Source: Candidatus Pacearchaeota archaeon
Lineage (GTDB): Archaea > Nanobdellota > Nanobdellia > Pacearchaeales > GW2011-AR1
NCBI GenBank assembly: GCA_016866935.1
Contig: VGKS01000008.1
Span: forward strand, 1-32,279
DNA length: 32,279 bases
Direction of reading: 5' to 3'
Part shown: positions 3,025 to 23,999 of the stretch, piece by piece
How positions within the stretch are numbered: position 1 is the stretch's first letter
Layout of the letters: every line of letters begins with the position of its first letter
Notes under the pieces: generated by a model
Seen by the model: only the letters and a program-made list of their open reading frames with translations
Told to the model about the DNA's origin: nothing
The model's database searches: none
Made by a program: the position numbers and the translations under genes

Positions 3025-3200
3025 TGCCCCTGCCGGGATTTGAACCCGGGTTTCCGCCGTTCTCCACCATCGCTTGCGCGACAGCCTGAGTTAACCATGC
3101 TGCTCTAGAGAGAGCACAGATATAGTCTCAGCGACATCACCTCGCATGCTGGTAAACCAGTTCGAGAGGGCGGTGAACTTGACCACTATTCTACAGAGGC
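3025..3200 (-). tRNA. tRNA-Glu(CUC) with 103-nt intron
   Basis: On the minus strand the 5' acceptor strand GCCTCTG (from 3200) pairs with CAGGGGC (3032-3026), with one G-U pair, and A73 is at 3025. D stem GAAT/GTTC, anticodon stem CCGCC (3173-3169) with GGCGG (3058-3054), T stem CCGGG/CCCGG with TTCAAAT loop. Loop bases 32-37 read CTCTCG, so the anticodon is CUC. An intron at the canonical 37/38 position (3162-3060) gives a clear bulge-helix-bulge: central helix CTCT/GGAG, bulges CGA and AAC. A TATA box TTTAAATA lies at 3231-3224, about 27 nt upstream, inside the end of the neighbouring endonuclease gene. CCA is not encoded. Confidence 0.9.
3060..3162 (-). other. tRNA-Glu intron (archaeal, BHB type), highly structured
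   Basis: The intron is 103 nt and carries three perfect short hairpins: CTGG-ttta-CCAG, GCTCT-ctct-AGAGC and TCGC-gcaa-GCGA. A longer pairing CTGAG/CTCAG encloses the middle one. A multi-branched fold is therefore likely. I found no convincing box C/D guide. It is removed by the tRNA splicing endonuclease, by analogy with other archaeal introns. Confidence 0.8.
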
Positions 3201-4103
3201 TTTCTTCTGAAAATTTTGTAGTCTATTTAAATGTTTATCGTTACTGAACCCTATTAGCTTTAAGTAAAGTTGAATATCTTCTTTCCTAGTAATAAATATT
3301 TGGTTTCCTTTAATTATTTTAGATGGATGAAACCCCAGTCTTAATAAAGATTCCCTGACGTCATCCAATAATTTTGGAATATAACTTGTAAAAGTTATAC
3401 GCAAATTTCGGTTATGTTTCGAGATGTAATGTATAGAACCATCTGTATCCATAAGACCTCTTAAACAAGCAGCGAGATAATCTTTATTTTCAAGAATCCA
3501 TGCAGGAATACCTTGTGAGTTTATTTTTTTATTTCCAGGCTTTATCCCTATTTTTTCAAAAAATTCAATTAACCTCTTTCCATTAACCACCAAGTAAAGT
3601 CCATTTCCATCATTTGAATTTTTAAACCTAGAATCATAATTAAAAAGTTGTTTAATCAGATTATTTACATATTTTCTTAGATAATTTGAATCTTTTACGC
3701 TATGGCCTGTTACTGTAAGAGAATATGATCTTATCTTTTTACCATTTTGATAGTATTCTAAATGTCCATCTCCTAAAATTATTCCACAAAGTTCAGCTAA
3801 AAAATTATTAAAAGAAACAGGTTTAAAGTATTTTAACTGTGATTCAACAGCATTTTTACCACCTTTAGATTTACCCCAATAATTTTCGAGCCTTTCTACA
3901 ATAAATTCATCAAAATTCTTTCCAGTTAGATCATTTAATAATTTATAAGTATCTTCGCTTAGAGTTCTAGTTTCCTTAAACAATTCGTTAACTAAATAAT
4001 TTTGATTTAATTTTAATTTTAAAGAAAGATCTTTCCAAGTCTCTTGCTTTTTTGCAAGAAGCAATAATTCTTTTTGTTTACCAAAAAGCAATTTTATTCT
4101 CAC
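3186..4103 (-). CDS. LAGLIDADG homing endonuclease inserted at tRNA-Glu 5' end
   Basis: The 305-aa protein has two LAGLIDADG motifs: ELCGIILGDG at about 104-113 and ACLRGLMDTDG at about 212-222, each with its acidic catalytic residue. It should act as a single-chain two-motif nuclease cutting a long asymmetric site. The first 95 residues are helical and look like an HTH-type DNA-binding part, followed by the WGKSKGGK linker seen in archaeal relatives. The start is GTG; an in-frame TAG lies just upstream. The last five codons (GCC TCT GTA GAA TAG) are also the first 15 bases of the tRNA-Glu gene, and a TATA box for that tRNA sits at 3231-3224 within the coding sequence. A second tRNA 5' end lies upstream at 4159-4139. 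The reading frame is intact. Confidence 0.9.
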   Translation of the reverse strand: MRIKLLFGKQKELLLLAKKQETWKDLSLKLKLNQNYLVNELFKETRTLSEDTYKLLNDLTGKNFDEFIVERLENYWGKSKGGKNAVESQLKYFKPVSFNNFLAELCGIILGDGHLEYYQNGKKIRSYSLTVTGHSVKDSNYLRKYVNNLIKQLFNYDSRFKNSNDGNGLYLVVNGKRLIEFFEKIGIKPGNKKINSQGIPAWILENKDYLAACLRGLMDTDGSIHYISKHNRNLRITFTSYIPKLLDDVRESLLRLGFHPSKIIKGNQIFITRKEDIQLYLKLIGFSNDKHLNRLQNFQKKASVE

Positions 4104-4852: not shown

Positions 4853-4912
4853 ATAGTCTAAAGCCCCGAAATGGGTTTAAAATAATTACGATTGCAAATT
4901 TTCCTAAAAGGT

Positions 4913-4921
4913 TATAAATAT
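4913..4921 (+). promoter_or_regulatory. TATA box of disA
   Basis: TATAAATAT is centred 26 nt before the ATG at 4943. This places transcription start at the codon and favours 4943 over the upstream TTG at 4892. Confidence 0.7.
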
Positions 4922-4942
4922 AAGTTAATCTTAGAACAAACT

Positions 4943-6034
4943 ATGGAAGAAAAAGAGGAAAAAAAAGAGTTTCAGACGCAAATTTTACAAGAAGAAGAAA
5001 AAGAAGCGAAATTGAAAGCAACGGAAGAAGAAGTAGATCATATATTGAGAATAGTCTCTCCGGGAACAAACTTTAGGAGCTCATTAGAAGGAGTAGTCCA
5101 TGCAAAAAAAGGAGCACTAATAGTAGTTGAAATAGAAGGAATACAACAAATTCTTGACGGTGGATTTAAAATAAACTCGAAGTTTACTCCTCAAAAAATA
5201 GTGGAATTATCCAAAATGGATGGGGCAATAACATTATCTAAAGATATGAAAAGAATAACTCAGGCAAATGTAATGGTTTATCCGGATAAAAAGATCTCTA
5301 CAAGAGAGACTGGAACAAGACATAAGACTGCTGAAAGAACTGCAAAAATGTTAGGCACATTGGTGGCTACAGTGTCGGAAAGAAGAGGAGAAATAGCAGT
5401 ATATTATAAAAATTTTAGACATATAGTAAAAGATGTTAATGATTTACTTAGAAAGGTAAACGAACAAGTTCAGATAATAGAAAAACAAAGGGAATTATTT
5501 GATTTAAATGTAGAAAAACTAACTCAGTCTGAATTAAGAAATAATCTTAATATACAACAAGCTTCGACAGTCATACAAAAAGGTAGATTAATAGAAAAAA
5601 TGGCAGATGATGTAAAAGATTTATTTTTAGAATTAGGAAACGAGGGAACTATAATAAAAACAAGATTAAAAGAGTTAACTACCGATATAGAAAAAGAAAT
5701 AAATTTAGTAATAAAAGATTATACTAAGGTCGACTTAAAGAAATCTAGAATATTGATAAATAGCTTAAATTATGAAGAGATTTTAGATTCGGATAACATA
5801 ATAAAATCTCTAGCATATGGAGAGGATAAAAAAGTTGAAAAAATAAGGGGTTGGAGAGTTCTATCCAAAACTTCATTGGATGAATCTGATATTGCTGCAT
5901 TAACTAAAGAGTTGGCTTCTTTAGGAAAGACAATATATTCAAATGTTAATTCTTATAAAAATATTATAGGAGAAGAAAAAGCAAATCTATTCAAAGAAGA
6001 AGTAGATCAAATTAAAAGAAATTATTTCTCATAA
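4943..6034 (+). CDS. disA: DisA-like diadenylate cyclase (c-di-AMP synthase)
   Basis: With the start at 4943 the protein is 363 aa, about the length of bacterial DisA. The DAC domain spans about 30-160 and shows both signature motifs: DGA at 93-95 and RHKTAER at 126-132. The enzyme condenses two ATP into cyclic di-AMP. A long helical linker follows (about 165-285) and then a C-terminal part compatible with the DisA HhH DNA-binding region. Archaea commonly use the shorter DacZ, so a DisA-architecture protein is of interest. The stop overlaps the next start by one base (ATAATGA), so it is co-transcribed with the phosphatase gene. The lysine/glutamate-rich first 25 residues are probably disordered. 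Confidence 0.85.
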   Translation: MEEKEEKKEFQTQILQEEEKEAKLKATEEEVDHILRIVSPGTNFRSSLEGVVHAKKGALIVVEIEGIQQILDGGFKINSKFTPQKIVELSKMDGAITLSKDMKRITQANVMVYPDKKISTRETGTRHKTAERTAKMLGTLVATVSERRGEIAVYYKNFRHIVKDVNDLLRKVNEQVQIIEKQRELFDLNVEKLTQSELRNNLNIQQASTVIQKGRLIEKMADDVKDLFLELGNEGTIIKTRLKELTTDIEKEINLVIKDYTKVDLKKSRILINSLNYEEILDSDNIIKSLAYGEDKKVEKIRGWRVLSKTSLDESDIAALTKELASLGKTIYSNVNSYKNIIGEEKANLFKEEVDQIKRNYFS

Positions 6035-10526: not shown

Positions 10527-11837
10527 ATGTCTTATGATATAATACTTGGTAGAGATGCTTCAGATAAAAAAAAGTTTGGTAAGTCAGGACTTATACCTAT
10601 AGGAAAAGGATATGTAACAATGGGAAATTATACCTCAATGTCTAACAACATATTTTTAGATGTAGCAAGATCTCATGTAATTCTAGTAGCAGGAAAGAGA
10701 GGATCTGGAAAATCATATACCTTAGGAGTTATAACTGAAGAAATAGCAAACTTGCCCCAAGAATTAGCAAGAAATATTGCTCCGATAATATTTGATACAA
10801 TGGGTATATTCTGGACAATGAAATTCAAGAATGAAAAAGACAAAGATATTCTTCATGAGTGGAATCTAGAAGCCAGAGAGTCTCCAGTAAAAGTATTTGC
10901 ACCAATAGGAAAGATTGAAGAGTATAAAGAGAAAGGAATTCCAGTAGATGAAACATTCGCTCTTAAAGCATCAGAATTAGATAGTGAAGACTGGATAATC
11001 ACTTTTAATCTAGCAATGACTTCACAAGAAGGAGTTCTAATAACAAACACCATAGCAGAATTAAAAGAAAGATCGAGTGACTTCAATATACAAGATATAA
11101 TCAAGCAAGTAACTCATACTCACAATGTAAGTCAAGAAACAAAGAATATAGTATCATCTTTATTCCAAGCTGCTGAAAGCTGGGGAATATTTTCAAAATC
11201 AAACCAAGGAACAGAAATAATAGACTTAGTAAATGCTGGTAAAACAACAATCCTAGATTTATCAGTTTACAGCTCCATAGGTTCATTTAATGTAAGAGGT
11301 TTAGTAATAGGTTTAGTCAGTAAGAAATTATTCAATGAAAGAATAAATGCTAGAAAGAAGGAAGAAATCCAATCTATTCAACACGGAATAGATTATGCAT
11401 CTTACAATCCTACAAGAGAGAATCCATTAGTGTGGCTTTTCATTGACGAAGCTCACGAATTCTTAAAAAAGAATGAAAAGACCCCGGCTACAGATGCTTT
11501 AGTACAGATTCTAAGAGAGGGAAGACAACCAGGCATATCATTAGTTCTAGCAACTCAGCAACCAGGCCAGATACATAATGATGTAATGACTCAATCAGAC
11601 ATAGTAATATCTCATAGAGTTACATCTAAACCAGATATAGAAGCTTTAAACCAAATAATGCAATCCTATCTTTTAGAAAGCATCAAAACAAGTATGGACA
11701 AATTACCTAGCAGTAAAGGAAGTGCAATAATCTTAGATGATAATTCAGAAAGAATTTATCCAATGAGGATGCGTCCAAGATTAACCTGGCACGGAGGAGA
11801 GTCACCTAGTGCTGTCAAGGGAGAATCCTCAATATAG
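10527..11837 (+). CDS. herA: HerA-like DNA helicase/translocase
   Basis: The 436-aa HerA/FtsK-type ATPase has Walker A GKRGSGKS at 56-63 after an N-terminal beta segment (HAS-barrel position), Walker B LVWLFIDEAHEF at about 301-312, and the later motif ILREGRQPGISLVLATQQP with QSDIVISHR, typical of archaeal HerA. HerA forms hexameric rings that work with NurA and Mre11-Rad50 in end resection. NurA is not in the window. The length is slightly below classical HerA (about 500 aa), so a HerA paralogue (DUF87 family) is possible. Confidence 0.88.
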   Translation: MSYDIILGRDASDKKKFGKSGLIPIGKGYVTMGNYTSMSNNIFLDVARSHVILVAGKRGSGKSYTLGVITEEIANLPQELARNIAPIIFDTMGIFWTMKFKNEKDKDILHEWNLEARESPVKVFAPIGKIEEYKEKGIPVDETFALKASELDSEDWIITFNLAMTSQEGVLITNTIAELKERSSDFNIQDIIKQVTHTHNVSQETKNIVSSLFQAAESWGIFSKSNQGTEIIDLVNAGKTTILDLSVYSSIGSFNVRGLVIGLVSKKLFNERINARKKEEIQSIQHGIDYASYNPTRENPLVWLFIDEAHEFLKKNEKTPATDALVQILREGRQPGISLVLATQQPGQIHNDVMTQSDIVISHRVTSKPDIEALNQIMQSYLLESIKTSMDKLPSSKGSAIILDDNSERIYPMRMRPRLTWHGGESPSAVKGESSI

Positions 11838-12493: not shown

Positions 12494-12787
12494 ATGACAG
12501 AAAGAGAAGACTTCAGAGAATTTGAAGAAAGAGTAAAACTACCAGCAATAGCTACAAAAGAACAATTAGAACAAATAGGAGCGCGTCATTTCAGAGGAGA
12601 TAATTTCGAAAAAAACGGAGTCCAATTCAGAATAGATCAAATGCAATATCAAAAAGAAAAATGTATGTATGTATGGAAAAGAATAGGCCCTAACGCAAGA
12701 ATAGAACAAAAGCCTTATCTTATACATGTGGAAATAAGACCTGACGGTTACAAATATTTCGAAACTAAAGAAGATGAAATGTTATAA
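12494..12787 (+). CDS. Small uncharacterised protein, 97 aa
   Basis: I do not recognise this protein. It is charged, cytoplasmic, with an alpha N-terminus (DFREFEERVK) and a likely beta C-terminal half (KNGVQFRIDQMQ, YLIHVEIRPDGYKYF). It has a single cysteine and no known motif. A TTTTAAATA box lies about 20-25 nt upstream of the ATG, so it has its own promoter. It overlaps the end of the convergent Trm5-like gene by 6 bp. Confidence 0.7.
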   Translation: MTEREDFREFEERVKLPAIATKEQLEQIGARHFRGDNFEKNGVQFRIDQMQYQKEKCMYVWKRIGPNARIEQKPYLIHVEIRPDGYKYFETKEDEML

Positions 12788-13564
12788 TACTTTAACATCA
12801 GCTCTATACCTAAACTTTCTAGCTCCAACATCTCCAGCCTTTACAATTCTTAATATCTTAACTTTTTTCTTGGATTCATTAGCCCTTGATAAAATCATAT
12901 CTCTTAGATTGTTAACTTCATCTTCTAAATAAAAACCATAATAATGAATTATACTTCCTTTCTTAACAACTCTAAATGAAACGTCTAGAAAATCATCTTC
13001 TAAATTAGGCCTAGACATAACAACCCTGTCAAAAATTCCATTGACTTTTTTACCATTTCCAATTACTCTTCTAACATCTCCCTGTATAACATGCACTTTT
13101 CCAATCAATTTATTGCGTTTAACATTCTCCAAAGCATAACGAGAAGGTTCTTTTCCAAGCTCCACACTATAAACTTCACGAGCCAAAGAGTTCTTAGCAA
13201 TAACTATAGAAAAAGGAGCAACTCCACCAAACATTACAAGAACACGCTCTCCTCTCTTCACAAATGAAGCAACATTCTTCCTCTCCTCAGATAAACGAGG
13301 AGAAAAATAACATGTTTCTACATTAAATCTAAACTCACACCCATTTTCTCGATAAAGTGCCTCAAGAGTCTTATCTCCAGCAAGCCACTTAGTTTTCAAA
13401 GTCCTAAGACGACCAGAAAACTTTCCAGTCTTTTCCAAAACAGTCATAACGCCTTTATGTTTAGCCAAATAATCAACAGCAAATTTTCTTTTAGCTGGAA
13501 CAGAAACACCTCTATCAAACTTCAATATAGCTATATTTCCAACAACATCGAACCCAATACGCAT
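12782..13564 (-). CDS. Trm5/Tyw2-like tRNA methyltransferase
   Basis: The 260-aa protein matches the Met10/Trm5 family: N-terminal FDVVGNIAILK and GRLRTLKTKWLAGD (D2 domain), CYFSPRLSEER at 85-95 with the conserved Arg90, then a SAM-binding Rossmann core MFGGVAPFSI (111-120), SVELGKEPSRYALEN (133-147) and DRVVMSRP (179-186). Trm5 makes m1G37 in tRNA. Two deviations: the usual N-(L/P)-P motif reads Ser-Arg-Pro, and the optional D1 domain is absent, as expected from the length. Tyw2-like transfer to wybutosine precursor is the alternative. Confidence 0.8.
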   Translation of the reverse strand: MRIGFDVVGNIAILKFDRGVSVPAKRKFAVDYLAKHKGVMTVLEKTGKFSGRLRTLKTKWLAGDKTLEALYRENGCEFRFNVETCYFSPRLSEERKNVASFVKRGERVLVMFGGVAPFSIVIAKNSLAREVYSVELGKEPSRYALENVKRNKLIGKVHVIQGDVRRVIGNGKKVNGIFDRVVMSRPNLEDDFLDVSFRVVKKGSIIHYYGFYLEDEVNNLRDMILSRANESKKKVKILRIVKAGDVGARKFRYRADVKVL

Positions 13565-13568
13565 AATA

Positions 13569-14363
13569 TTAAATCAACTCTTTTCCGCGAGCCAGAACAT
13601 TTCTATGGTTTAATAAATCTCTTATTTGATCACGTGCACCATTAGGGTTAGGATGCGATCCATCGGCAATTGCTTTATTTATCTTTGTTATCTTTTCATT
13701 TATTTCCATTATCTGATTCCAAGTGTGTCTTGAGAATTGTTTTTTCATCTTCTGAGTTCTAATCCATTGAACTACCCATGTGTCAAAGAAGAAAGCATAG
13801 ATTAAAGCACCAAAAGCGCCCCACAAATAAACTCCAGCATACGCTTCCAACTCAGTAGTAGCCCATAATCCAAAGTAAATCACTGCATAAAATACCCAAG
13901 CAGCTTTTCTAAGCCATTCATCTAAATCTTTAGTAAATGCCCAGTAAATCATAAATGGCAGAACTCCAGCAACGGTAATAAACAAAACTTGATACTGAAC
14001 TAATATAGTTCCAATCCAAATATAATTAAGATTTCTAACTCCAAGTAATCCAATAATAATTGCAACTAATCTCAATACCCCTTTATGTTTAAATCCTTGG
14101 AAGAAAGGTAAATTACCTAAAATAATTCCTACAATAATAGAAATAAGGATGAAAAGTAAAGTTTTCTCAAACAATAAATATCCTGTCCAATCAAAGCCGC
14201 CTAGCAAAAACCTTAACAATGGTTCTAAATTCATAGTGATAGAATTGATTACCTGTTCAGTCCCATACCAAAACCCTCCTCCAAATTGAGCACTAACAAT
14301 AGGAATAAAAGCAAAAAATAACAAAGCAGATAAAGTCAGAACAATTGTATTTGTATTTTTCAT
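13569..14363 (-). CDS. Signal-peptide membrane protein, family member 1
   Basis: The 264-aa protein has a signal peptide ending VSAQ (about 25), an amphipathic stretch leading to LLRFLLGG, then about five to six membrane helices and a 55-aa charged cytoplasmic-looking tail (from about 205). It aligns visibly with the next gene: LL.FLLG, LLF.LI.I....L....., LRLVAIIIGLLGVR, PFMIYW and RKAAWVFYAVIYFGL. A TTTATAA box about 25 nt before the ATG matches that of the next gene. No enzymatic motif is seen and I cannot assign a function. It is the first of five similar genes between 13.5 and 17.4 kb. Confidence 0.8.
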   Translation of the reverse strand: MKNTNTIVLTLSALLFFAFIPIVSAQFGGGFWYGTEQVINSITMNLEPLLRFLLGGFDWTGYLLFEKTLLFILISIIVGIILGNLPFFQGFKHKGVLRLVAIIIGLLGVRNLNYIWIGTILVQYQVLFITVAGVLPFMIYWAFTKDLDEWLRKAAWVFYAVIYFGLWATTELEAYAGVYLWGAFGALIYAFFFDTWVVQWIRTQKMKKQFSRHTWNQIMEINEKITKINKAIADGSHPNPNGARDQIRDLLNHRNVLARGKELI

Positions 14364-14410
14364 GTGTTAAACAACACTCCAAGAGTTATAAACATTTTGA
14401 GAAAATTTAT

Positions 14411-15259
14411 TTATGCTTTCCCAACAAGCTTATACTTACCTGGAGGAATTCCCAACCTTTTAGCTTTCTTTTGAATACTCTTTATAACAATATCAGCCTT
14501 TTCAACATCAAAACCAGGCTCCAATTGATTCCTTGTAGCCTTAATATACTCATCATCAAGATCAAGCTGATGTTTAGCTAATCTAAGGTCACTATCCGCA
14601 CTTGCCCTAACATTAGCAAGAGCATTTTGTATAGTTTTATCTGCAATAAACATAATCAAACAAAGTCCTGCAGTAATCAAATAAATAAATGCCGGATTAA
14701 ATGCCGGATTAATTGGTTTTTCTTGTATACCGCTAGGATAAAAACCGATCGTAACTGCTTCTACTCTATAAAAGAAAAGCCCTACAAAAACAACAGCAGC
14801 AAATATCCAAGCAGTCTTTCGCATTACGGTGCTTTTAGCAAGACCTTTTTCCACATAAAAGAAATAAAGTATAAATGGGAAAAAAGAAGTTAAAGCTATA
14901 CCAAGCGCAGTATAAGGCAAAACAACAGTCTCAACCCATGTAGGAGTTATCCATCTAACAGCAAGAATCGAAACCACTACAGAAATAATCCAAGATTTGC
15001 TTTGCAGTGGAGAAACCTGGCTTAAAGCATAATTAACAAGAGATATTAAGATAATAAAAAAAAGCAACTTTGCAAAGAACAACTCTCCACTATCAGTGTT
15101 TTTTCCAAGCAAAAACTTACCAAATGGTTCAAAAATAGTGTTATAAAAATTCTCTGCACTATCCGCGACTACTTGTAAAGTTAACTGCGCACTAACAAAA
15201 TCAGCCAAACCACCAAATACAAAAAGCGAAAGTAAAACAATAACACCTAATTTCTTCAT
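14411..15259 (-). CDS. Signal-peptide membrane protein, family member 2
   Basis: The 282-aa paralogue of the downstream gene has a signal peptide ending VSAQ (about 25), the segment FGKFLLGK, about five to six membrane helices (with SKSWIISVVVSILAVRW, FFPFILYFFY and MRKTAWIFAAVVFVGLFF) and a 75-aa charged tail predicted helical. Its own TTTATAAA lies about 26 nt upstream, so each member seems separately transcribed from similar leaderless promoters. Function unknown. Confidence 0.8.
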   Translation of the reverse strand: MKKLGVIVLLSLFVFGGLADFVSAQLTLQVVADSAENFYNTIFEPFGKFLLGKNTDSGELFFAKLLFFIILISLVNYALSQVSPLQSKSWIISVVVSILAVRWITPTWVETVVLPYTALGIALTSFFPFILYFFYVEKGLAKSTVMRKTAWIFAAVVFVGLFFYRVEAVTIGFYPSGIQEKPINPAFNPAFIYLITAGLCLIMFIADKTIQNALANVRASADSDLRLAKHQLDLDDEYIKATRNQLEPGFDVEKADIVIKSIQKKAKRLGIPPGKYKLVGKA

Positions 15260-15303
15260 GTATTAACTCAAATCATCATCATTTATAAACATTTCTCGAA
15301 CAA

Positions 15304-15963
15304 TCAAGAACTTCCAGATTCTATGCCTTTAACGACCTTTTCTATCTTCTTCTCATTAAATCTAGAGTTTTGTTCAATTAAATTTTTTCTACGTTTCTCA
15401 AAATAAAATGCAAAAATAGAGTTAAGCTTATACCATAAAAATATAAATAAAAATATTATAAAAATAAAAAAAGTTCGCCAAAGCGGTGAAACTTTCAAAA
15501 AAACAAGTTCTGAAGCTAAGCTAGACAAAGAAGAAAAAAAATGTAATTGAGCTAAAACAGTAACACAAAGAAGAGAGTAGACAAATCTTAAGAGTTTACT
15601 ATCAACATAAAAGTATTTAGTAACAGAAATCAAAGTAAACAACCATAAACCAAATACAAAAAGCATAGTTAAGGACAAACTCCAATCAATTCCAAACAAA
15701 ACAACAAAAACTATATTTATCTTAATAAAGAAAGCATCAATTCCAGATATAAGCTTATTCTTTAGTAAAAATTCTTTCCATTGCATCCCTATAAATTCCC
15801 ATTTCTCCTTCTGCCCAAATTCCTTAACCTTTGTTATATTCCCCTCAAGATTTTCAACACCTTCATCGATTTTACCTTCAATATCTCCAATCTGTCCAGA
15901 AACTAAAGAAATAAAGGCTAAGATAAACAAAAATACCCCAATTCTTCTAAGCAAACTAACCAT
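15304..15963 (-). CDS. Signal-peptide membrane protein, family member 3
   Basis: A TTG at 15984 is possible but the ATG at 15963 fits a TATTTAAA about 25 nt upstream and gives a standard signal peptide (MVSLLRRIGVFLFILAFISL, ending VSGQ). The 219-aa product then has a charged, coil-prone segment (30-65), about four membrane helices and a basic tail (KRRKNLIEQNSRFNEKK). The order of helices, with a KLLRFVYSL segment after the second helix, parallels members 4 and 5. Function unknown. Confidence 0.72.
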   Translation of the reverse strand: MVSLLRRIGVFLFILAFISLVSGQIGDIEGKIDEGVENLEGNITKVKEFGQKEKWEFIGMQWKEFLLKNKLISGIDAFFIKINIVFVVLFGIDWSLSLTMLFVFGLWLFTLISVTKYFYVDSKLLRFVYSLLCVTVLAQLHFFSSLSSLASELVFLKVSPLWRTFFIFIIFLFIFLWYKLNSIFAFYFEKRRKNLIEQNSRFNEKKIEKVVKGIESGSS

Positions 15964-16012
15964 TAATATAAGAAAAAAGCCCAATTTAAATAACTTTCAT
16001 GATATCAAAATC

Positions 16013-16066
16013 TTTATATAAACTAAAAAATAGTAATTATAATAAAGAGTTATAATGAAAGGAGGT
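16013..16066 (+). promoter_or_regulatory. Promoter and strong Shine-Dalgarno of member 4
   Basis: TTTATATAAA at 16013 predicts a start near 16043. The resulting leader holds AAAGGAGGT with GGAGGT at 16061-16066, six bases before the ATG at 16073. This is the strongest ribosome-binding site in the window, among mostly leaderless genes, and it decides the start in favour of 16073 over 16055. Confidence 0.7.
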
Positions 16067-16072
16067 ATAAAT

Positions 16073-16639
16073 ATGATAAATAAAAAAGCAAGCGCATATG
16101 CCTTATTAGGATTAGTAGTCCTTCAAGTTATACTTTCAGTCAGTTTTGTTGCAGCTCAATCGGTTACAACAAAATCTAGCGTAATAACCGAACCATCATG
16201 GTTAGTTTCAATAGCTAAATTCATGGGGTTCATAAACAATGACGGTAACGTGACTTGGGCAATAATAGTGGCTTCGGTCGCAGTACTAGCTATGATTTTC
16301 GCAGCTACATATGACATATTAGAATTTACCGCATTCGAAAGTTCATGGGTAAAATTTGTAATTGCTGCATCAATAGCAATGATTGTTGCAGTAGCAGATG
16401 GAATAACATTCCTTACTGCACTTATAATGTCTATAGCTGGAGGTTCAGTTGCAATAGGAACTACTTTAGCGATAATTTTCGCAGTAGGTTTCTTCCTCGT
16501 AACTACATGGGCAAAAGGAAAAGCAAAGAAATTTAAAGCTAAAAATCAAGCGGCAAAAGCAGAAGCTGGATTTATCGAAGCAGCAAATGCACTTCAAGGT
16601 CTTAAAAATGTAGAAAAAGCAGCGGCTAAGAAGGAATAA
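16073..16639 (+). CDS. Signal-peptide membrane protein, family member 4 (probably abundant)
   Basis: The 188-aa product has a signal peptide (ending VAAQ, about 29), the segment PSWLVSIAKFMGF (42-53), a first membrane helix (61-80), the family signature ILEFTAFESSWVKFVI (82-97) and two or three further helices to about 146. An Ala/Lys-rich helical tail follows. Member 5 has the same signature (ILNFTAFERKWVRVVI). It is the only member on the plus strand and the only one with a leader, a strong Shine-Dalgarno sequence and a T-rich terminator, so I infer high expression, as for a structural subunit. No known family recognised. Confidence 0.82.
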   Translation: MINKKASAYALLGLVVLQVILSVSFVAAQSVTTKSSVITEPSWLVSIAKFMGFINNDGNVTWAIIVASVAVLAMIFAATYDILEFTAFESSWVKFVIAASIAMIVAVADGITFLTALIMSIAGGSVAIGTTLAIIFAVGFFLVTTWAKGKAKKFKAKNQAAKAEAGFIEAANALQGLKNVEKAAAKKE

Positions 16640-16646
16640 ATAAAGA

Positions 16647-16680
16647 TTTTATTTTTTTTATTCTTTATTCTTTATTTTTA
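16647..16680 (+). terminator. T-rich terminator after member 4
   Basis: Within 8 nt of the stop begins a 34-nt run dominated by T (ATTTTATTTTTTTTATTC and more T stretches), the usual archaeal oligo-T terminator with no hairpin needed. It separates the gene from the convergent member 5. Confidence 0.6.
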
Positions 16681-16728
16681 GTAAAAAAGAGAGTAAATCG
16701 TAAAAATAAGAACTTAATCGTTCTTTAA

Positions 16729-17316
16729 TTAAGAACTTTTAGAAACTATATCTGTAGTTCTAGCAAGATTATCTATTGCAATTCCGGCCTTAATGCCTTT
16801 GCTTTCTAAAGCAGACAATTTCTTATGCCGAGCAAATTCCTTCAAGAAAGCCGAAAGAATAAAGTATGCAACAAAAAGTCCAACTAATAAAAGTAAACCC
16901 TTCCAACTGAGAAAAAAGCCCGTCACTCCAAAGAGCATTTCAATAAAATTATTCAAAGCACCAGTAGTTGAAATCATAAAAGTAACTGAAAGGCCTATAA
17001 CTACACGAACCCACTTTCTTTCGAAGGCAGTAAAGTTAAGAATGTTCAAAGAAAAAATAAATAATACAACCCATAAAAGAGTCAACAAAAATATCTTGCC
17101 AAATGGAATTCCCTTAGATATATCCTCAAGATTGAAGATTACCTCATTCAAAACTTCAAGCCAAGGAGGTAAGATAATAGGTTTAGCTAAAGTTTTACTA
17201 GAAGAATCTTTTATAGTATCTAAAAATCCAGGACCTGTTAAATTACTAGTTAAGTTTTCTTGAGCACTAACGAAAGTCAAAAGAAAAAAAACTATCCCAA
17301 AAAATATAAACTTCAT
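16729..17316 (-). CDS. Signal-peptide membrane protein, family member 5
   Basis: The 195-aa protein has a signal peptide ending VSAQ (about 19), N-glycosylation-type sequons (ENLTSNLT), PPWLEVLNEV, a membrane helix, the signature ILNFTAFERKWVRVVIG (about 92-108), two more helices with GALNNFIEMLFG between them and a basic tail. The same order is seen in member 4. It is convergent with member 4. Function unknown. Confidence 0.8.
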   Translation of the reverse strand: MKFIFFGIVFFLLTFVSAQENLTSNLTGPGFLDTIKDSSSKTLAKPIILPPWLEVLNEVIFNLEDISKGIPFGKIFLLTLLWVVLFIFSLNILNFTAFERKWVRVVIGLSVTFMISTTGALNNFIEMLFGVTGFFLSWKGLLLLVGLFVAYFILSAFLKEFARHKKLSALESKGIKAGIAIDNLARTTDIVSKSS

Positions 17317-17382: not shown

Positions 17383-18399
17383 TCAGAATAAAGTACTCTG
17401 GCCCTTCTTAACCTTGAGTTCTCTTAACTTAGCAATCTGATTTTCAACTCTTTCTTCAGAAAACTCGTGTCTTGTGACCAAAATTTCCTTAATCTTTTTT
17501 TCATCAAACCTCGGAAATATGACTTTATGCTTTGAAACATTAGGTTTCTTAAAAATCTCAAAAATCTCTCTCCAGTTAAATCCCAAATCTCCATGTCTTG
17601 CAACAACTTCTTCGAAAATAGAAACAGGATGAATTCTCTGTTTAACAAGAGCCAGTGCTTTCTTAGGGCCAATTCCTTTAACACCTCCAGGATTAAAGTC
17701 TGTCCCAACCAAAATAGCCAAACAAATCAATTGATCCCCAGTTATCCCAAGCTGATTAATCACAGATTCAAACTCAATCATTTCAGGAGCAATATAAATA
17801 AATCCAGAAACAGTTTTGCGTTTGCGAGCTAAAGTTAAATTTTGAATTAAACGAGTCCCTCCAACAACTAAAGCATCATAATCCTGACTTCCAACAGCAT
17901 AAGCCTGCCCACTCTTTACCAATTCAGCCGCCTGCATTTCTCCTTCCCCAGGAGCTTGAACAACAGCAATTCCCATAGCTTCAAGTAATTCCTTACTTTC
18001 AGCAATCATCTTATCATCAAGCCTAATAAAACCACGAGAATACTTACTCATCCCTAGAACATCTTCCTCTTCCAAAGCTTCTTCATATTTTTCAGCCATC
18101 TTGTCTTTAGCAGCTTGACGAATCTCATGAGTCTTACCCTTCAAAACATGATATTCTCCATCAAAAACATAAATCAGACTAATTCCCTCTGAAAGTAAAG
18201 CCACATTTCTATAAAACAAACCAGACAAATGAGAAGTAACATTTCCTGTAGAGTCCATTAAAGGTGTTCCATCAGGTTGCCTAACAGAAGATAAAAATTG
18301 GTAAATTGCGTTAAATGCATCTACGGCAATAGTTTTACCCTTTAAATCAGAAAAAGCAACCTCTTTGCGATTAACTATATCTCCTATTTGTAAACCCAT
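17383..18399 (-). CDS. fen: Flap endonuclease 1
   Basis: The 338-aa FEN-1 shows the N nuclease block (VDAFNAIYQFLSS, FDGEYHVLKGKTHEIR), the I block (APGEGEMQAAEL, VGSQDYDALVVGGTRLI) and the H3TH region (GTDFNPGGVKGIGPKKAL). The catalytic carboxylates seen include Asp27, Asp79, Glu149/Glu151, Asp170/Asp172 and Asp221. It removes 5' flaps during Okazaki maturation and repair. The C-terminus GQSTLF is a PCNA-binding PIP box. Length is normal. Confidence 0.96.
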   Translation of the reverse strand: MGLQIGDIVNRKEVAFSDLKGKTIAVDAFNAIYQFLSSVRQPDGTPLMDSTGNVTSHLSGLFYRNVALLSEGISLIYVFDGEYHVLKGKTHEIRQAAKDKMAEKYEEALEEEDVLGMSKYSRGFIRLDDKMIAESKELLEAMGIAVVQAPGEGEMQAAELVKSGQAYAVGSQDYDALVVGGTRLIQNLTLARKRKTVSGFIYIAPEMIEFESVINQLGITGDQLICLAILVGTDFNPGGVKGIGPKKALALVKQRIHPVSIFEEVVARHGDLGFNWREIFEIFKKPNVSKHKVIFPRFDEKKIKEILVTRHEFSEERVENQIAKLRELKVKKGQSTLF

Positions 18400-21861: not shown

Positions 21862-23937
21862 TCATTTAAGATTACTTATTAATCCTCCTGTATTAACCGG
21901 GCTATTTGTTAAGTTTGAAGCTAAAGCAATTCTTCTACGCTTAATAGCTTTAAATATCAATACCGATAATATTATTATCATAATAGAAAGTACTGCAATA
22001 AGAATCCAGAATATCATGCTTCTTAGAGCCATAGAGTTTGATTGAGTCCCAGGCAATGTCTGAGGCGTTCCAGTTCCAGAAGTAGTGCCAATACTAGTTG
22101 TAGTTCCCGCAGTTGTTCCATTTCCAGTACTAGTTCCCGCAGTTGTTGTTCCTCCGCTGCTAGAACCACTGCTTGAACTTCCTCCGGAATTAGAACCACC
22201 ACTAGACCTTGCAGTGGATGAACCCGTTGTATTAATAACGCTGAAATTTACAGAACCCTTTAGCCTCGTACCATTAGTAAAGTTTGCAAATGCTGTGAAA
22301 ATGTAATTCCCTACAGGAATTAAATCTTGATCATAATTAAATTGAAGACCATCAGTAGTATTCATTGTAGTGTTAGTTAGCCCATTATTGAAACTAAATC
22401 TAACACTTCCATTTAATGTGCTTAAGCCAACTCTGAAAGTTACGGGGAAAGAAGCAGTAGTATACTGTTCATTCGGATCGGGTTCGTTAATAGACATAGT
22501 TTGAGCACTAGGTTGTGGTTGCGTTGATACTTGTCCAGTCCAATTGATTGAATAATTTGTCCATCCAGTCACATTAAAAGTAGCAATTCCAAGATCAACC
22601 GTAACATTAGTGCAGATAGTTGAAGGACATGGAAATCCGTCGCGATAAACCGTTGCATTGAAGATGTTATTCGGTAAACCGTAGAAAGTGACAACTGCGG
22701 ATTTGTTTAAACCAAGGTTTAAATTAGATTTAACTTCAGCAAAATTATTACTTAAAATCATATGATCGCTCAAATTGTTTCCAATAACATTTCCAAAAAT
22801 AGAGGTGAAATTAATTAAACCATCTTTATTTGCAAAAATCAAATAAGTATTATTTAACCTATAGCTTTCAAAATAATTATCCTTAATCGATAAATAAGCT
22901 AAACCCTGTGAAGAGAAAAAAGGAGGATTAACATTCAAGCTATGATATCCAATTGTACCATTACTTACAGAATTATTCTCAAGATAATAAGAATACTGGA
23001 CAATTCCCGAAGTAATAAAACTTATTCCGTTTCTCGAAGGATTTAATATTTTATTACCTACAAATTTGTTATTATTTGAAAGAATAGAATAAACTCCATC
23101 AGAAAAAGAATTATTTATCTCATTTAAAGAAATAGAATTATTATCTGAACTGGAAAGAAGTATAGAATAATTAAGGCCGTTAATTTTGTTTAAAGATATA
23201 AAACTATTATAAGATGCTTGTAATCCAACTCCTTGTCCAGATTGTGATGGATTTGAAAGATAGGTTATAAAATTATTATAGACTAAACTATTATTAGACA
23301 AAGACAAAGATATTCCGTTAAGACTTACATTAACAATAATATTTTCTGATATGTTTGCTCCAAATGACTGAAAGACGTATATTCCTAGATTACTATCTGC
23401 TCCAGAACCATATTTAGGATTAAGAATATTTCTATAAGCAACTGAATTAAAAGTATTATTAAATGAAATTCCAGTATTCGTTGAAGAATTAATATAGTTA
23501 TTATATACAAAAGATCTGTTTCCCGAAGATATTATCCCATTTAGAAGCACACTAAAATTATTACTTGTAATATTAAGATTTTTTACGGTAACATCATTTC
23601 CAGTAATATTTACGGCAGTAAATCTAATTCCTATATTTGATGGATTGGCAATCCAATAACTATTCAAACCGTCTAAAGTAATATTATTCCCATTTATAAT
23701 CAAACAATCTCCTCCAACCGATAAACTCTGATTAAGAACATAATAAGAGTTGTTTTGAGACAAAACCCCACAACTTGAGACATTTATAGCATTTGAAGGT
23801 ACCGGTTGCAAAAGTAAAACAGGGAATTCAACTCTAAAAGTTAAAATTAAAATTAAAAGAGCAACTATACAAATAACTAGCATTGGCACACTATAGTACA
23901 AAGGAACTCTTGGAAAGATCTCTTCTTTTTGAATCAT
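21862..23937 (-). CDS. Anchored right-handed beta-helix surface protein (NosD/PbH1-like)
   Basis: The ATG at 23937 follows TATAAAAA by about 25 nt and is preferred over the start at 23973. The 691-aa product has a signal-anchor helix, then SSCGVLSQNN...YVL and CLIINGNNITLDG, the entry to a parallel beta-helix. Many repeated N-x-(I/V/S)-x-x-N turns follow (SLNEINNSFSDGVYS, NNKFVGNKI) up to about 390. Then Ig-like strands, a Ser/Gly/Thr-rich stalk (about 575-630), a C-terminal membrane helix and a basic tail. Such beta-helices often bind or cleave polysaccharide; no catalytic motif is apparent. Many N-glycosylation sequons. Confidence 0.85.
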   Translation of the reverse strand: MIQKEEIFPRVPLYYSVPMLVICIVALLILILTFRVEFPVLLLQPVPSNAINVSSCGVLSQNNSYYVLNQSLSVGGDCLIINGNNITLDGLNSYWIANPSNIGIRFTAVNITGNDVTVKNLNITSNNFSVLLNGIISSGNRSFVYNNYINSSTNTGISFNNTFNSVAYRNILNPKYGSGADSNLGIYVFQSFGANISENIIVNVSLNGISLSLSNNSLVYNNFITYLSNPSQSGQGVGLQASYNSFISLNKINGLNYSILLSSSDNNSISLNEINNSFSDGVYSILSNNNKFVGNKILNPSRNGISFITSGIVQYSYYLENNSVSNGTIGYHSLNVNPPFFSSQGLAYLSIKDNYFESYRLNNTYLIFANKDGLINFTSIFGNVIGNNLSDHMILSNNFAEVKSNLNLGLNKSAVVTFYGLPNNIFNATVYRDGFPCPSTICTNVTVDLGIATFNVTGWTNYSINWTGQVSTQPQPSAQTMSINEPDPNEQYTTASFPVTFRVGLSTLNGSVRFSFNNGLTNTTMNTTDGLQFNYDQDLIPVGNYIFTAFANFTNGTRLKGSVNFSVINTTGSSTARSSGGSNSGGSSSSGSSSGGTTTAGTSTGNGTTAGTTTSIGTTSGTGTPQTLPGTQSNSMALRSMIFWILIAVLSIMIIILSVLIFKAIKRRRIALASNLTNSPVNTGGLISNLK

Positions 23938-23999
23938 AAAAATATCACAACCCTCACTTTTTATAAAAAGCAAACTGATTTATAAACATTGTCTGCGCA

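Follow-up and report, generated by a model that had tools for sequence, protein, structure and literature searches.

Introduction

The machine of archaeal type IV pili and the archaellum consists of a secretion ATPase, a platform protein of the TadC/FlaJ type, a prepilin peptidase and pilins (Front Microbiol 2016, PMC4858521). Cluster 2 DPANN archaea have two conserved type IV pilus-like loci with a CpaF-type ATPase, a TadC-type platform and coiled-coil genes (Nat Commun 2024, PMC11291902). These loci are conserved in Woesearchaeota, Pacearchaeota and others. The DPANN archaea brought into culture live attached to other archaea. Pilus-like loci were proposed as candidates for this contact (PMC11291902). 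For some DPANN pilus islands, a review of archaeal dark matter suggested that unidentified signal-peptide proteins are diverse pilins (PMC6393860). Here we analyzed five adjacent genes, named P1 to P5, in a stretch of 32,279 nucleotides from a Pacearchaeota archaeon (GenBank assembly GCA_016866935.1, contig VGKS01000008.1). This whole stretch, called the window below, is contig C8 of a genome with 43 contigs and 685,645 bases. An earlier reading of the letters alone (the sequence-only reading) proposed a mixed membrane assembly that could not be placed in any known system. Genome context and a near-universal gene triad now place the cluster with type IV filament machinery, and this association is fairly well supported. 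P1–P5 probably serve the type IV filament machine of DPANN archaea as an accessory module in the membrane, in the form of a mixed subcomplex.

Five genes with one protein plan form two related families

The five adjacent open reading frames (ORFs) were confirmed over positions 13569-17316 (Table 1). All of them encode signal-peptide membrane proteins with a basic tail, so the common plan described by the sequence-only reading is real. The genes do not form one operon, because P4 lies on the opposite strand. By eye, the signal peptides of P1 to P5 end in IVSAQ, FVSAQ, LVSGQ, FVAAQ and FVSAQ, and a simple hydropathy scan found 4, 5, 4, 3 and 3 hydrophobic segments after them. In a pattern scan of 21 loci, mostly selected for holding the cluster or a pilus locus, 15 of the 16 proteins whose signal-like start ended in A/G-Q were cluster members. 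We took the ATG at 15963 as the start of P3 (an alternative TTG gives 226 amino acids) and the ATG at 16073 as that of P4 (an upstream ATG gives 194). The motifs quoted earlier held up in part: FTAFESSWVKFVI / FTAFERKWVRVVI is present in P4/P5 and RKAAWVFYAV / RKTAWIFAAV in P1/P2, but LRLVAIII is confined to P1. P3 has a long segment with a conserved W...W...LL motif.

The AlphaFold2 model of P4 (mean predicted local distance difference test, pLDDT, 80.5; predicted template modelling score, pTM, 0.56) is ordered as signal helix, short helix, two membrane-length helices, a second short helix and finally a long helix (about 62 residues) that includes both the basic tail and the third hydrophobic segment. 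By the positive-inside rule, this predicted topology suits an N-out, C-in orientation.

The proteins belong to two unnamed families, family I (P1 and P2) and family II (P3, P4 and P5). BLASTP joined P1 with P2 (5e-16) and P4 with P5 (3e-7); in the BLASTP comparisons made, P3 had no significant pairwise match to P1, P4 or P5. At a BLASTP cut-off of 1e-4, 38 cluster proteins from 11 genomes fell into one group of 16 and one of 20, with 2 left over. Profile-profile comparison (hhalign) matched P3 to P4/P5 at 98.3% over 137 columns, and family I to P4/P5 at 97.1% over 93 columns. With another family I alignment, family I matched P4/P5 at 97.5% over 140 columns and P3 at 95.5% over 61 columns. The part common to the families is the segment preceding the first membrane helix together with the first helical hairpin. 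Controls for the pairings with P4/P5 reached at most 2.2% with reversed profiles and at most 1.8% with the unrelated A24 membrane peptidase. The earlier view that the five genes are related is thus supported at the level of profiles, which join families I and II.

A near-universal triad links the cluster to type IV filament genes

Weak matches outside the family led to 5-helix proteins of about 170-220 amino acids, which are mostly encoded in tandem threes and, by eye, have no signal peptides. We use the term triad superfamily, defined in this analysis, for this group. A profile built from ten triad members matched 117 of 119 genomes sampled from the phylum (E ≤ 0.001), and the triad is a more general finding than the cluster. 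In the source genome, three triad genes at C13:8393-10012 lie beside a gene for a T2SSE-type ATPase (Pfam T2SSE, 5.7e-14). A T2SSE-type gene was near the triad in 16 of 26 loci, the source genome included, although some regions were short. In region L077:8372-10048 (G000:C13), the triad stands beside the T2SSE ATPase, a platform-like protein and two small genes. The 9-helix protein of this pilus locus, which we call T2SSF/TadC-like from its position and resemblance, had no Pfam match at E ≤ 0.01.

The hhalign comparison of family I with the pooled triad gave 94.7-95.6%, and that of P4/P5 gave 87.4%, with controls (reversed profiles and the A24 membrane peptidase) at or below 3.2%. When the triad was split by position, which gave clean triads at 24 of 25 loci, family I matched members T2 (96.4%) and T3 (95.2%), and P4/P5 matched T3 (80.5%). 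The family I profile also matched ORFs in G011 (5.6e-10) and G002 (6.4e-10) that overlap triad genes. As judged from these profiles, family I and, more weakly, P4/P5 belong to the triad superfamily; P3 joins it because of its 98.3% link to P4/P5, not directly.

A rival explanation is a conjugation-like apparatus for DNA transfer (type IV secretion or Ced/Ted), in which family I would be a VirB6/CedA-like channel, family II a VirB2/CedA1-like pilin and HerA the motor. It fits the plan of signal peptide plus helical hairpin, and families I and II resemble in their pattern the published Ced systems, where the N-terminus of CedA is described as homologous to the CedA1 pilin (PMC9905601). The nearby HerA-type ATPase weakly matches the CedD model (8.7e-11, 41 bits against a cut-off of 600), and among ten triad members one weakly matches PF04956 TrbC (0.0011) and one PF18895 T4SS_pilin (0.05). 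But the Bax1-I match of a triad member (0.00042) is stronger than the TrbC match, and the models of TrbC (PF04956) and TrbL (PF04610) match nothing in the source genome. PF04956 matched in 7 of 36 genomes, where the four matches over the cut-off are separate ORFs of 110-122 amino acids, and PF04610 matched weakly in 2 of 36. Two VirB2-like proteins (G288 and G006) and two 6-helix proteins of G007, which adjoin TrbC matches and were taken as VirB6-like, reached at most 2.3% against family I, P3, P4/P5 and the triad, in contrast to 90.2% against each other. Membership of P1–P5 among VirB2/VirB6 proteins was therefore rejected on sequence, in a comparison that had CedA/CedA1 outside it. The TrbC/TrbL nulls, the profile similarity of at most 2.3% and the company of the triad with T2SSE speak against the conjugation-like reading, which we regard as unlikely.

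Apart from the cluster, small VirB2-like proteins over the PF04956 cut-off were seen at L177 and L183 (G007), L176 (G288) and L178 (G006). In G007, the VirB2-like gene is followed by genes for a 6-helix protein and one more membrane protein, as in a conjugation operon.

Distribution and genomic placement of the cluster

P3-type matches at E ≤ 0.001, weak and broken ones included, were present in 98 of 180 genomes of the order and in 34 of 56 genomes of the family. Family I matches were present in 43 of the 56, and many weak ones were triad-sized ORFs. Co-occurrence was counted from match tables with strict cut-offs (P3 1e-10, family I 1e-15): both families were found in 22 of the 56 family genomes, most of which are incomplete, P3 alone in 8, family I alone in 2 and neither in 24 (Fisher p 5e-7, relatedness ignored). 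Such co-occurrence would be expected of components of a single assembly. In 19 of the 22 genomes holding both, they lie on one contig within about 6 kilobases (kb), so the homologues are clustered and not scattered; separate contigs carry them in G020, G029 and G043. In a phylum sample (n = 237), P1/P2-profile matches outside the family were weak (1.3e-5 and worse). Two ORFs matched weakly there, at L028 (531 amino acids, 1.3e-5) and L031 (429 amino acids, 9.4e-4), have a signal-like start, a few helices and long charged tails. We also considered a viral or mobile origin and rejected it: viral contigs scanned with one alignment each of P3 and family I, by a method that needs short conserved stretches, yielded no relatives (P4/P5 were outside these scans).

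The cluster recurs across the order ('Candidatus Pacearchaeota'). By our own count, 97 cluster loci from 91 genomes, a subset of the genomes with matches, were classified with home-made profiles; many of the regions stop at contig ends. The cluster was within 8 kb of FEN1, Trm5 or HerA at 62 loci (in family f1 and one f87 genome) and within 8 kb of an A24 prepilin peptidase, T2SSE or T2SSF gene at 16. Another 3 loci were near RPA- or EF1B-like genes only (HIT, EF1B and RPA labels were assigned by eye), and 16 were near no marker. At the 62 loci of the FEN1/Trm5/HerA type, no neighbours of the A24, T2SSE or T2SSF kind were found (0 of 62; Fisher p 5e-9, relatedness not taken into account).

As we read the gene maps, the cluster occupies two positions in the pilus block. 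The first, between HIT-like and EF1B-like genes, was seen in G002, G050, G385, G396, G380, G311, G332 and G304, and less clearly in G318 and G307 (about 10 genomes altogether). The second, on the other (pilin) side of A24, was seen in G043, G334, G361, G041, G009 and G294, the last being from another family. A single 19-kb contig of G041 holds an A24 fragment, pilin-like genes, P4/5-P4/5-P3, T2SSF, T2SSE and the triad. One stretch of G002 (L164, L039) holds two detected triad genes, T2SSE, T2SSF, pilin-like genes, A24, three family I genes and P3. In G043, P3 and P4/5 are at A24 and one family I gene is between FEN1 and Trm5 (L165). We also inspected another 20 A24 regions, taken from genomes that have the cluster at a different site or match P3 weakly or not at all: RPA- or EF1B-like genes accompanied A24 in 16 of 20 and T2SSF did so in 12 of 20, so the pilus block exists without the cluster.

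If the 62 loci at the FEN1/Trm5/HerA site are taken as decisive, P1–P5 could be membrane anchors of a DNA replication/repair neighbourhood (FEN1, HerA, RFC, PolB) unrelated to pili, and RFC and PolB genes are likewise in the window. But signal peptides and a largely membrane-embedded plan are ill-suited to a cytoplasmic DNA role, 16 of the 35 loci located elsewhere are in or near a pilus operon, and the triad accompanies a pilus ATPase in the 16 of 26 loci mentioned above. We consider this explanation improbable.

A different family of signal-peptide multi-helix proteins (183-207 amino acids, 41% mutual identity) was seen at L007:7974-8525 and L050:6461-7084, where it adjoins FEN1 and no neighbouring family I gene was found.

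Searches of family libraries, folds and literature

P1–P5 had no credible match in Pfam, NCBIfam or PHROGs, and the triad had none in Pfam or NCBIfam. NCBIfam was run on P1–P5 and ten triad members, and PHROGs on P1–P5 only. The members of the cluster thus do not credibly match unrelated known families; such matches were what the sequence-only reading had named as refuting it. The matches that appeared for cluster and triad proteins were weak and inconsistent, for example DUF267 (0.0016), Bax1-I (0.00042) and holin (0.0028). The last belongs to P3 (a PHROG holin profile, with Pfam Hol_Tox at 0.13) and would suit lysis- or toxin-like (holin-like) pore proteins, or else an unrelated transporter. 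Matches this weak are usual for hydrophobic stretches here, no viral-contig relatives of P3 or family I were found, and a recurrent multi-gene cluster among chromosomal housekeeping genes does not suit holins, so we judge this explanation very unlikely.

Against sequence profiles of the PDB, family I matched a sodium channel (0.00049) in its tail region, which we took as a probable charged-tail artefact, and P4/P5 gave nothing below 0.8. P1–P5 had no match to Pfam T2SSF at E ≤ 1; the platform-like protein of the source genome likewise had no Pfam match at E ≤ 0.01. Type IV pilins were rejected as an identity for P1–P5, which have Sec-like signal peptides ending in xxQ (by eye) and 3-5 further hydrophobic segments, as opposed to a class III signal and a single helix. 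We found no description of the triad or the cluster in the running text of the mostly open-access literature searched.

A probable accessory module of the filament machine

The cluster is genuine, recurrent and unnamed, and is most likely an accessory of a known machine. P1–P5 would be a lineage-specific branch of a superfamily that has the near-universal 5-helix triad as its core. In Nanoarchaeota-type DPANN archaea, the triad genes often adjoin those of the filament ATPase (T2SSE/CpaF-like) and the platform (T2SSF/TadC-like). As to mechanism, we infer a membrane scaffold touching the platform or ATPase and partly exposed at the surface. The signal peptide of the P proteins would be cleaved, the segment after it would lie on the outer face, the helices would embed the protein in the membrane, and the basic cytoplasmic helices would touch the platform or ATPase. 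Such a complex of P proteins might serve the filament as scaffold or anchor, or produce a variant of it specific to the lineage, perhaps used for attachment to host cells.

Several observations weigh against this assignment. The majority of cluster loci, that of the source genome included, are among housekeeping genes, and the pilus genes of the source genome are on contigs other than the cluster's (its A24 block is on C11). The pilus-operon placements share ancestry, so they represent few independent events. Strong P3 and strong family I are both missing from 24 of the 56 family genomes and A24 is present in 51 of 56, so the module is dispensable. No T2SSE was seen at 10 of the 26 triad loci. 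The profile links are also uneven: family I matched T1 at 60.6%, P4/P5 matched T1 at 3.0% and T2 at 12.9%, P3 had no direct link to any triad member (at most 11.2%), and the pooled family II profile reached 30.7% against the triad. With one alignment, family I matched P3 in the signal peptide only (28 columns), and family I matched its own reversed profile at 41.2% over 36 tail columns, which means that charged tails can mislead. The fold search with the P4 and P2 models gave no PDB match at E ≤ 0.001 (the P2 model being low-confidence), and the best VIA Z values, 7.6 for P4 and 6.3 for P2, are within the tool's stated noise. VirB2, VirB6 and CedA1 did not appear among the matches listed, which does not count against any of them.

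More tentatively, DPANN archaea may hold an undescribed near-universal triad subcomplex of the type IV filament machine, of which Pacearchaeota could have evolved a second, surface-exposed and mixed version with cleaved signal peptides (P1–P5), perhaps as a device for host contact or transfer. The triad, present in 117 of 119 sampled genomes and having no credible Pfam or NCBIfam match, is a concrete gene set for study in cultured DPANN archaea, and the P cluster would be its lineage-specific outgrowth.

Start signals and flanking genes

A Shine-Dalgarno-like GGAGGT site precedes P4 and, by eye, has no counterpart in P1, P2, P3 and P5, as described earlier. TATA-like boxes lie about 20-30 bases upstream of the P1–P3 starts, and that of P5 is nearer, as in leaderless genes (by eye). 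Overproduction of P4 as a structural subunit was not supported, since GGAGGT was found in 0 of 8 other P4/P5-type genes (of these 8, one carries a purine-rich stretch, one is truncated upstream by a contig end and one has an uncertain start). The clear terminator ascribed to P4 is a T-run between two convergent genes and is therefore not P4-specific. With automatic starts, 6 of 54 ORFs of two loci had at least 5 Shine-Dalgarno bases upstream; P4 falls outside this set, since the start assigned to it automatically is the upstream ATG.

HerA was not adopted as a part of the system, as it accompanies Trm5 in the P3-less loci L165-L167; this comparison covered loci holding some cluster gene. The HerA-like ORF at L041:129-2729 has 866 amino acids, compared with 436 in the window, and its sequence diverges from the others after the ATPase P-loop, possibly owing to an intein. 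The window also holds a DisA-type diadenylate cyclase and a LAGLIDADG-domain ORF (4892-6034 and 3186-4103), and a 703-amino-acid ORF matching right-handed beta-helix (21862-23973) that adjoins the PolB gene.

Table 1 Coordinates of the cluster genes, the P4 start signal and flanking marker genes in the window
Feature	Coordinates	Strand	Description
P1, family I	13569..14363	-	264 amino acids; signal peptide, 4-5 membrane helices, basic tail
P2, family I paralogue of P1	14411..15259	-	282 amino acids; AlphaFold2 mean pLDDT 67.8, pTM 0.42
P3, family II	15304..15963	-	219 amino acids; signal peptide, ~4 hydrophobic segments, basic tail
P4, family II	16073..16639	+	188 amino acids; signal peptide, short helix, 3 hydrophobic segments, long basic helix at the C-terminus
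P5, family II paralogue of P4	16729..17316	-	195 amino acids
GGAGGT Shine-Dalgarno-like site of P4	16061..16066	+	
HerA/DUF87-type ATPase	10527..11837	+	marker of the recurrent genomic setting HerA-Trm5-[cluster]-FEN1; not assigned to the module
Trm5/TYW2-type methyltransferase	12782..13564	-	flanking marker gene
FEN1/XPG-type nuclease	17383..18399	-	flanking marker gene

Comparison with known systems

Compared with archaeal type IV pili and the archaellum, P1–P5 are neither pilins, as they have no class III signal, nor recognisable platform proteins. The suggestion that signal-peptide proteins of DPANN pilus islands are diverse pilins (PMC6393860) does not fit the multi-helix P proteins. With the Ced/Ted systems as described (PMC9905601, PMC11868833), the locus shares a multi-helix membrane protein with a smaller relative that has the same N-terminal part, as well as HerA/VirB4-type ATPases. 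It differs from them in its context, which points to type IV filaments, and in having no profile similarity to the VirB2/VirB6-like proteins of relatives, the comparison described above. The pilus-like loci of cluster 2 DPANN archaea (PMC11291902) differ in that the triad and the signal-peptide families go unmentioned in section 8 and the legend, although the figure may show them. They are alike in that the triad analyzed here adjoins similar genes, and the small genes beside it may be the published coiled-coil genes.

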